Origin: a virus
Length of the DNA: 28,161 nucleotides
IMG/VR virus record: IMGVR_UViG_3300009412_000025
Location: 1 to 28,161 of that record
Direction: 5' to 3' (one strand)
The position numbers were made by a program, and so were the translations under genes. Shown here piece by piece: positions 24,682-26,771 of the stretch (position 1 is the first letter of the stretch; each line of letters begins with the position of its first letter). The notes below the pieces were generated by a model. It was given only the letters and a program-made list of their open reading frames with translations. It was not told the DNA's origin and searched no databases.

Positions 24682-25098
24682 TCAGATATGTTTTAGTTTA
24701 TTTCCTTTTATCCAACGTCCGTGACAATCACATTTGAAGGAATAAATTAATTCTTCTTCTGTGGTTTCGTAATCAAAAGTGATTTCATCTCCTTTTTTTA
24801 TGTCCCTTTTCGCAGTCACCAGTATTACTTGGTTTGTTTCACATTGAGCAACTGGATTAAAACCCACAAAATTTGAGTTTATTTTGATCTCAGCACTTGG
24901 ATTACAATGATGATTCATGTATCCCCCTTTTGGATCTTCAATGTGCTTGTCTCCGATCTGTATAGAAGTTCTGCTGGGCTTAGAAAACTTTTCTCCCTGT
25001 AACATAAGTATTATATTTCCTTTTTTAACAGATTGATTAGCGAAAAGTCCTTTTGCACCCTTCTTTATTTTTTTTATTTTAACGTTAGCGTTGTTCAT
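24682..25098 (-). CDS. SET-domain protein lysine methyltransferase (138 aa)
   Basis: This is a minimal SET domain that uses S-adenosylmethionine to methylate lysine. Visible elements are KGAKGLFANQSVKKG at 12-27 (the SET-N strand), NHHCNPS at 62-68 (the NHxCxPN pseudoknot motif), VTAKRDIKKGDEITFDY at 94-110 with the catalytic Tyr110, and a post-SET-like CxC (C123, C125). At about 138 residues it resembles stand-alone viral and bacterial SET proteins rather than multidomain eukaryotic ones. SET is uncommon in bacteriophages, so the substrate is open: a host protein, a nucleoid protein or the phage's own proteins. It overlaps its upstream zinc-knuckle neighbour by 14 bases and shares an operon with the DNA methyltransferase. 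Confidence 0.85.
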   Translation of the reverse strand: MNNANVKIKKIKKGAKGLFANQSVKKGNIILMLQGEKFSKPSRTSIQIGDKHIEDPKGGYMNHHCNPSAEIKINSNFVGFNPVAQCETNQVILVTAKRDIKKGDEITFDYETTEEELIYSFKCDCHGRWIKGNKLKHI

Positions 25099-25268: not shown

Positions 25269-26771
25269 TTACCCCTCATTTCTTGATGTGATTATAGCCA
25301 GTCCAACGTAGTAAACGAGCTGGGGGACAACTGCGTTTCCAAGTGCTTTTAGTCTTGGAACCCTAGTTTTATCTGTTTCAACTACTCTTGGGATTCCTTG
25401 TTCCCAAGATCCGTCCAGCCATGAGGAAACCCCATTAAGACTTCCACCCAAGAAGGATTTAAATGCTTCGTGATTTTTGATGGTTTCTTCTTCAAATGAA
25501 TTTCCCCCGGAAGATCCAGCTGTTTGCCCAGATCCTTTCTCCTTTGGTGATATTCCTTGTTCGGAACGTCCATCTTGTGCATTCCCTGATTCGGTGTCGG
25601 AAACATTTTTTGTTGCTCCTCTACCATTACTACTCCCGCTAGTTTTCCCTTCTTTGCTACTTTCTCGTAGTTTGTGTTCTCTCCTGTATCTTTCCAATCT
25701 CTCGCCGCTGGAGAAGGCAACATTTTCCTGACTATTACTTCCGTTTCCAGACGTTTTTTTGGGTTGCCCTCGTCTATTTCTTTCTGACTCGGACCGTTTG
25801 CCATGCTCACCCTTGGAGTCGGCCACATCTTTTGTTTTTCCATGTGGTTCACTGCGTCTTTCAGTTTCACTCCCCATCTCACTCCTTGTTTGTTCTTCCG
25901 GGAGAACGAGCCGTTGTTCAGCTCCACGTTCTTGACCAGTCCCCCTTCGGTGTCGCTCACTCTCGGAGTCGGCCACATTTGTTCGTATTCTGGGTTGTGT
26001 ACTGCTTCCCTCAGGTTTGAGCAACCGCCTTTTTTCGCTGCCTCTGACAACTCCTCTCGTTTCCGTATCTGTCCGCTCCTCATTCCGTCCATTGCTTGTG
26101 GAGTCGGCCAGAGTTTCATTGTCTGTGGATTCACTTGTTCTCTCAAATTTGAAGGTTTCGTGCGTCCTTTTCTTGTTGTTGTCGCTTGTCTTAGTAATGC
26201 TTCCTTTGATCTTTGTGGAAGGTGATCCATTGTGTTCGGTGTCGCCCACATTTTCTGCGACCCAGAAGATTCTTTCGCGCCTGTGCGGGGCACCGATACT
26301 CGCTGCTTCAACACTAAAGCACCTTGTGGAGTAGTTCTCGCTGTCCAGATCCGAGAGAACGGAATCAAGACCGAGTCGAATATGCCCGCCCACGTTTTCT
26401 CCAATGGCGTAATCTGGACGGAGTTCTCTAATGAGTCTAAAATATTCTGGCCAGAGGTGACGCGGATCTTTTTCACCTTTTTGATGTCCTGCAACGGAAA
26501 ACGGCTGACATGGGTACCCTCCACAGATAATGTGGATTCTTCTTCTGTCAGAGATAATTCCATCTGTTTGTAATCTTTCATAACTTAACTCCTTTACGTC
26601 GTTATATATTGGCACATTCGGCCAGTGTTTGTTTAATACTTGGCATGGAAACTTCTCGATTTCGCAGAAAGCAACAGTCTCAAAATGTCCTGTGCTGTCT
26701 AGTCCTAATGAGAAGCCTCCAATACCACTAAAAAGATCTAATACTCTTAGTTTTTCAATAGTTGTGCTCAT
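25269..26771 (-). CDS. dcm: DNA (cytosine-5) methyltransferase (500 aa)
   Basis: The enzyme methylates cytosine C5 in DNA. The catalytic motifs are intact: I DLFSGIGGF (12-20), IV PCQPFSVAG (87-95, nucleophile C88), VI ENV (125-127), VIII APHRRERIFWVA (161-172), and X GNAVVPQLV (478-486). Between VIII and the C terminus, where the target recognition domain belongs, residues 173-430 are low complexity, rich in S, E, R, G and N, with six repeats of an NVADS type (NVGDT, LADST, NVADS, DVADS, NVAFS, NVSDT). That part is overprinted by a second frame. Residues 440-470 (SFLGGSLNGVSSWLDGSW) are ordinary for the family. The start overlaps the upstream stop (ATGA). It likely protects phage DNA from host restriction; its target is unknown. 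Confidence 0.9.
   Translation of the reverse strand: MSTTIEKLRVLDLFSGIGGFSLGLDSTGHFETVAFCEIEKFPCQVLNKHWPNVPIYNDVKELSYERLQTDGIISDRRRIHIICGGYPCQPFSVAGHQKGEKDPRHLWPEYFRLIRELRPDYAIGENVGGHIRLGLDSVLSDLDSENYSTRCFSVEAASIGAPHRRERIFWVAENVGDTEHNGSPSTKIKGSITKTSDNNKKRTHETFKFERTSESTDNETLADSTSNGRNEERTDTETRGVVRGSEKRRLLKPEGSSTQPRIRTNVADSESERHRRGTGQERGAEQRLVLPEEQTRSEMGSETERRSEPHGKTKDVADSKGEHGKRSESERNRRGQPKKTSGNGSNSQENVAFSSGERLERYRREHKLRESSKEGKTSGSSNGRGATKNVSDTESGNAQDGRSEQGISPKEKGSGQTAGSSGGNSFEEETIKNHEAFKSFLGGSLNGVSSWLDGSWEQGIPRVVETDKTRVPRLKALGNAVVPQLVYYVGLAIITSRNEG
25382..26581 (-). CDS. Overprinted WPTP-repeat protein within dcm, +1 frame (399 aa)
   Basis: This gene lies wholly inside the methyltransferase gene, same strand, +1 frame. 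ATG 26581 has a strong ribosome binding sequence, AAAGGAG, 7 bases upstream, hard to explain by the methyltransferase reading alone. Residues 1-110 run opposite methyltransferase motifs IV-VIII. Residues 111-340 hold six units opening with a WPTP-type motif (M111 MWATP, L157 LWPTP, M202 MWPTP, M252 MWPTP, M287 MLPSP, M326 MFPTP). They are spaced 35-50 residues, several ending in LREQVN, LREAVH or LKDAVN. The C terminus has LNPSWVEVLMGFPHGWTDL. I recall stand-alone and overlapping proteins of this WPTP...GFPxGWT type in phages, without known function. A target-recognition partner for the methyltransferase is a guess. Confidence 0.65.
   Translation of the reverse strand: MKDYKQMELSLTEEESTLSVEGTHVSRFPLQDIKKVKKIRVTSGQNILDSLENSVQITPLEKTWAGIFDSVLIPFSRIWTARTTPQGALVLKQRVSVPRTGAKESSGSQKMWATPNTMDHLPQRSKEALLRQATTTRKGRTKPSNLREQVNPQTMKLWPTPQAMDGMRSGQIRKREELSEAAKKGGCSNLREAVHNPEYEQMWPTPRVSDTEGGLVKNVELNNGSFSRKNKQGVRWGVKLKDAVNHMEKQKMWPTPRVSMANGPSQKEIDEGNPKKRLETEVIVRKMLPSPAARDWKDTGENTNYEKVAKKGKLAGVVMVEEQQKMFPTPNQGMHKMDVPNKEYHQRRKDLGKQLDLPGEIHLKKKPSKITKHLNPSWVEVLMGFPHGWTDLGNKESQE
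26589..26595 (-). promoter_or_regulatory. Ribosome binding site for the overprinted gene
   Basis: AAAGGAG reads leftward here, 7 bases before ATG 26581. In the methyltransferase frame the same bases code for Val-Lys-Glu in DVKELSYE, a non-conserved stretch before motif IV. It decides the start of the internal gene. Confidence 0.7.

Follow-up and report, generated by a model that had tools for sequence, protein, structure and literature searches.

The window analyzed here, a viral sequence of 28,161 nt taken at its full length (IMG/VR record IMGVR_UViG_3300009412_000025), encodes a 500-aa C5 cytosine methyltransferase (the outer ORF), and a second ORF of 399 codons (the inner ORF) lies inside it on the same strand (Table 1). 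The inner frame is +1 relative to the methyltransferase frame, such that inner codon position 1 corresponds to outer codon position 2, and the two frames overlap for ~1.2 kb. An earlier note, made from the letters of this DNA, had described a nested 399-codon ORF with its own ribosome binding site, six WPTP-type units spaced 35 to 50 residues apart, and a distinct C terminus (LNPSWVEVLMGFPHGW), and all of these features are borne out: a Shine-Dalgarno site (AAAGGAG) lies 7 nt before the ATG, the six units start at inner residues 112, 158, 203, 253, 288, and 327, and their heads read WATP, WPTP (three times), LPSP, and FPTP. The same note placed the overlap where the outer frame is of low complexity and a target recognition domain would be expected. 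The low complexity is indeed there, but the overlap is not confined to it and also covers outer motifs IV to VIII.

Table 1. Features of the nested gene pair in the window
Feature	Position	Strand	Basis
Outer ORF, catalytic chain of C5 cytosine methyltransferase, 500 aa	25269..26771	-	PF00145 E 9e-41; phrog_363; Foldseek best = M.HhaI structures
Outer motif I, DLFSGIGGFSLG	26703..26738	-	Sequence
Outer motif IV, GGYPCQPFS (catalytic Cys)	26496..26522	-	Sequence
Outer motif VI, GENV	26391..26402	-	Sequence
Outer motif VIII, GAPHRRERIF	26265..26294	-	Sequence
Outer residues 185-461, disordered near-neutral passage	25389..26219	-	pLDDT <50 over most; substitution classes
Motif X, RLKALGNAVVPQ, outer frame only	25320..25355	-	Sequence; model helices at residues 470-478 and 483-499
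Inner ORF, 399 aa, +1 frame, proposed chain for target recognition and motif IX	25382..26581	-	phrog_1008 E 2.4e-31; constraint
Shine-Dalgarno AAAGGAG, 7 nt 5' of inner ATG	26589..26595	-	Sequence
Inner N-terminal domain, residues 1-111, over outer motifs IV-VIII	26249..26581	-	Kept across relatives; dual constraint
Module 1, WATPNTMDHLPQRS...NLREQV	26111..26248	-	38-member cluster
Module 2, WPTPQAMDGMRSGQ...NLREAV	25976..26110	-	Present in L008 too
Module 3, WPTPRVSDTEGGLVKNVE...KLKDAV	25826..25975	-	7-member cluster
Module 4, WPTPRVSMANGPSQKE...RLETEV	25721..25825	-	Present in L056 too
Module 5, LPSPAARDWKDTGEN...KLAGVV	25604..25720	-	13-member cluster
Module 6, FPTPNQGMHKMDVPNKEY	25463..25603	-	Present in L008 too
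Motif-IX-like signature, LNPSWVEVLMGFPHGW, inner residues 374-389	25415..25462	-	Invariant residues in relatives; weak hhalign match

The outer chain carries C5 methyltransferase motifs I, IV (PCQ), VI (ENV), VIII, and X, and its family profile aligns to M.HhaI residues 5 to 174 (motifs I to VIII) and then weakly to residues 300 to 318 (the motif X helix). Neither the M.HhaI profile alignment nor the AlphaFold2 model revealed a target recognition domain or motif IX in this chain. The model, built, as were all structure models here, from alignments excluding rows from annotated phage records, is confident at residues 1 to 180 and at about 480 to 500, with pLDDT mostly <50 over residues 185 to 461, and a Foldseek search with it returned M.HhaI structures as the best matches. 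In bacterial genomes carrying the nested class of locus, PF00145 matches are largely full-length or end near profile position 165 to 230.

The inner protein falls within phrog_1008 ("DNA methyltransferase") and has no match in Pfam or NCBIfam. Its best-conserved part is the C terminus, LNPxWVEWLMG[FY]PxGWT, in which the L, P, V, E, M, P, and W are invariant in 63 relatives. The form LxPxxxxxLMG[FY]Pxx[WF] resembles methyltransferase motif IX in both shape and spacing, as illustrated by LTPRECARLMGF, the motif IX pattern of a standard methyltransferase from one of the same genomes. When profiles are aligned with hhalign, the inner C terminus lands on motif IX, weakly and over eight columns, with 2 of 100 column shuffles scoring equally high. 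A PDB profile search found no relative of the inner protein and Foldseek found nothing with its AlphaFold2 model, which is poor (mean pLDDT 60, pTM 0.32), and a recognition domain is therefore not established by structure.

The inner ORF is a real gene, as is evident from its start signals, its selection pattern, and its distribution. In relatives, the inner start is mostly 12 or 13 codons 5' of the outer PCQ motif (20 codons in the window). Shine-Dalgarno matches of at least 5 nt are found at 65% of first-ATG inner starts, compared with 2 to 5% of control ATGs in the overlap; the 65% refers to first-ATG starts only, and becomes 74% when GTG/TTG starts picked for their sites are included.

We counted substitutions in nine independent pairs of loci with divergence up to 15%. 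Upstream of the overlap these are distributed 54/34/113 over outer codon positions 1, 2, and 3, the normal pattern for the outer frame, and in the module half the same nine pairs give 162/41/35, with changes concentrated at the inner third position (module half versus nonoverlapping flanks, P about 3e-24); the window's twin, L006, compared with L007 gives 35/3/1 in the module half. Module-half substitutions that are synonymous in the inner frame and change the outer protein occur at 2.4 times the expected number, and those synonymous in the outer frame that change the inner protein at 0.45 times. Because changes altering the inner protein stand at 0.45 whether the outer protein is altered or not (0.45 in both cases), the outer frame is close to neutral in the module half. 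Over the catalytic half, selection acts mainly on the outer frame and mildly on the inner, and the constraint on the inner N-terminal domain is already present before motif VIII. Where the two frames share bases, the amino acid signature of the inner is also better conserved than that of the outer.

Frame openness was evaluated at 77 loci. The third frame over the module half is open in none of these, and under outer-synonymous shuffles the inner frame stays open in 11.7% of cases on average and in 0.5% for L006. The outer frame is expected to be open in about 1.5 of the 77 loci under inner-synonymous shuffles, a figure that shows only that openness is not free, because the loci were preselected for carrying both frames. 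The check for synonymous-site constraint in both frames that the earlier note had suggested thus finds purifying selection on the inner frame. Its picture of one DNA stretch serving a catalytic protein and a repeat protein stands as regards dual coding, with the amendment that constraint in the module half lies on the inner frame, the outer one being a near-neutral passage to motif X. Dual coding is well supported, as is the note's suggestion that the inner product might supply target choice to the methyltransferase.

The nested arrangement is shared by hundreds of viruses and bacteria; after further searches, the pair was located with identical phase at no fewer than 169 loci in phages, prophages, and bacterial genomes. 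Among the matches listed, the inner C-terminal signature occurs at 148 distinct sites in the first 257 loci, of which 125 share this phase and fall within an ORF bearing methyltransferase motifs, with most of the others interrupted by contig ends. Pattern scans covering viral contigs and a GTDB set with one genome for each species gave at least about 600 matches each, and hosts among the matches listed include Paenibacillus, Clostridia, Bacteroidota, Alphaproteobacteria, and Actinomycetota. When loci were picked by the outer protein, 56 of 80 had the inner motif by a strict pattern; the loci seemingly without it mostly carry a diverged version, with the frame still open. The inner frame remains open in relatives, and its ATG and ribosome binding site are both conserved; the earlier note had considered that relatives might show stops in the frame or loss of these start signals.

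In annotated phages, tblastn matches to the inner protein lie solely under methyltransferase genes, and at about 390 loci, bar edge-cut contigs or masked sequence, the inner protein is accompanied by the methyltransferase N-terminal half. Inner ORFs that seemed to stand alone were explained by contig edges, masked sequence, or a separate upstream ORF for the methyltransferase N terminus. The earlier note had suggested that the inner protein might oligomerize or counter host defenses; such a role for this protein alone is left without support, since it is not clearly found without the methyltransferase N-terminal half. The pair is also present in Mycobacterium phage SG4. Many annotated records, and most of those checked here, give the outer frame only; the Paenibacillus larvae phages annotate both, with phage Shelly using the label "g55 internal gene."

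Several individual loci are of separate interest. In a Roseovarius assembly, L127, L128, L129, L132, and L133 match the pair with identical scores among the matches listed, presumably reflecting repeated prophages. In an Actinoplanes locus (L170, 2515-4740) the inner frame continues in frame into the downstream protein, giving a 741-codon open frame, and on a Bacteroides finegoldii plasmid (L288) a short methyltransferase N-terminal ORF accompanies an intact inner-type ORF of 353 aa, with the motif X pattern unmatched. The pattern did not match the inner motif in the enterobacterial P2-like phages ESSI2 (L382) and SEN5 (L385) or in Xanthomonas phage PhiXhv-5 (L384), and the inner frame of all three was matched by tblastn. 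These P2-like and other phages carry a diverged version with the outer end DWL.CRDGKWRPV...YGNA, and the PhiXhv-5 annotation contains two nested methyltransferase ORFs.

Between the inner N-terminal domain and motif IX, relatives mostly have one to seven WPTP-headed units of 30 to 50 aa, with six in the window. We found that 267 of 425 units group into 25 clusters of at least four members. In the best cases a module is 87 to 98% identical between proteins whose N-terminal 90 residues are <40% identical, and it sits at different positions in the two; at a 60% module threshold there are 388 such protein pairs sharing a module behind diverged N-terminal 90 residues. The window's six modules precede the motif-IX-like end, and modules recur in shuffled order across relatives. 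Multispecific phage C5 methyltransferases carry tandem target recognition domains in their variable region, and because a shuffled deck at the site of the variable region resembles such an array, we propose that each module may read one target. Extra WPTP modules also occur downstream of the first motif IX in L092 (2998-4806), L033 (2120-2353), and L330/L331 (near 3298), with those of L033 and L330/L331 ending in another motif-IX-like end; these resemble a reserve cassette with the potential to recombine into the deck.

A second class of locus, represented by at least 13 examples, is split rather than nested. Here the N-terminal methyltransferase ORF stops after motif VIII, and an overlapping second ORF of the inner type holds the N-domain, modules, motif-IX-like signature, and motif X together, with IX and X in canonical order. 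The outer frame of the split class contains 118 stops in 1,968 codons, compared with none in the nested class, where this is partly by definition. Parsimony on a tree of the N-terminal domains indicates that loci have switched between classes eight times. The natural reading is that in nested loci the outer frame stays open through the modules solely to deliver motif X.

The conserved dual coding, the selection pattern, the domain missing from the outer chain, the motif-IX-like end, the split variants, and the sharing of modules are all consistent with the reading that we favor, at a probability of about 0.83, in which a heteromeric C5 methyltransferase has both of its chains, one catalytic (outer) and the other for target recognition and motif IX (inner), encoded by a single DNA stretch. 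The outer ORF would yield the catalytic chain, composed of motifs I to VIII, a disordered linker, and motif X; the inner ORF, translated from its own ribosome binding site, would provide the missing small domain in a chain with the N-terminal domain, modules, and motif IX. The two chains would come together as an active enzyme and methylate the phage genome, probably at multiple targets with one per module, and this methylation may shield the genome from host restriction. An alternative is that the inner ORF specifies a small protein that acts independently, such as a regulatory or anti-restriction factor, and is merely nested within the methyltransferase gene. Its own start and ribosome binding site and its lack of a recognizable fold would fit, but this is unlikely in light of its association with the methyltransferase N-terminal half at the loci counted above, the fusion of motif X to an inner-type protein in the split class, and the absence from the outer chain of the very domain that the inner protein would supply.

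A single chain, with motifs I to VIII linked to the modules and motif IX, would result if ribosomes underwent a programmed +1 shift out of the outer frame and into the inner one past motif VIII, and in one locus (L096) the N-terminal half is indeed joined in frame to the inner reading frame. Nonetheless, the inner start before PCQ is conserved together with its Shine-Dalgarno site, the inner N-terminal domain is constrained upstream of motif VIII, and the frameshift product would be devoid of motif X in the nested class, and we consider this mechanism quite improbable. It is also conceivable, since about 12% of outer codon shuffles keep the inner frame open and repeats in one frame yield repeats in the other, that the inner frame is untranslated and open simply because outer composition and repeats avoid stops there. 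This is extremely unlikely, as substitutions fall on inner third positions, the inner signature is more conserved than the outer over the same bases, and the split class keeps the inner frame while its outer frame is full of stops. Returning to the two-chain methyltransferase, we lean slightly toward the broader view that such enzymes are very widespread multispecific C5 methyltransferases of phages and prophages, with an overprinted recognition deck of 30- to 50-aa modules that are swapped and vary in number, and a catalytic frame that drifts almost neutrally but remains stop-free to reach motif X.

The nearest precedents are two-chain methyltransferases. M.EcoHK31I (YGGCCR) is a naturally split methyltransferase (PMC3439449) with motifs I to VIII and X on a large chain and motif IX on a small one (PMC3404938). 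Compared by motif layout, the window's large chain likewise has motifs I to VIII and X without motif IX, and the signature and position of the motif-IX-like end fit placement of motif IX on the second chain, with a weak profile match. The systems differ in that the large chain of M.EcoHK31I is predicted to contain a target recognition domain, which the window's large chain lacks, and in that the window's small chain carries a multimodule deck. Lee, Kam and Shaw (1995) reportedly found the M.EcoHK31I small chain to be nested within the coding sequence of the large one, in a different frame. In M.AquI (CYCGRG), also split, the second chain contains the distal variable region and motifs IX and X (PMC3404938). 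This two-chain arrangement would be shared, with IX and X both on the second chain in split relatives such as L303, L291, and L209; unlike M.AquI, the window has motif X on the catalytic chain and a second gene that is wholly nested.

The methyltransferases of phages SPR, phi3T, and rho11 carry a tandem series of short target recognition domains between motifs VIII and IX. The window's modules are similarly tandem and of similar size, but those enzymes are single chains in a single frame, whereas the deck here is in trans and overprinted. We note that the phrog_1008 name is silent on nesting and function, and that phage Shelly and other records with both frames contain the same nested pair in GenBank with the mechanism not given. 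The literature searched contains no description of this nested family. With M.AquI and M.EcoHK31I as precedents, the principle of a two-chain C5 methyltransferase is therefore known; the literature searched offers no match for the scale, the modular nested deck, or the neutrally drifting outer frame.

If the two-chain reading is correct, many phage and prophage genes annotated as cytosine methyltransferases represent only the catalytic half, with the specificity half absent from many annotations. This would account for any lack of activity in cloned outer ORFs and for the fact that they do not allow specificity to be predicted. The pair is also an unusually large and old same-strand overlap, with one frame conserved and the other drifting, for which the split class offers natural escapes as controls. 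Should the modules be target recognition domains, they would form a natural system for dissecting sequence-specific DNA methylation module by module. A 138-aa protein with a SET domain (PF00856, E 4.5e-12) is encoded near the methyltransferase pair, at window positions 24682-25098 on the minus strand; SET-domain enzymes generally have proteins as their methylation substrates and are uncommon in phages.
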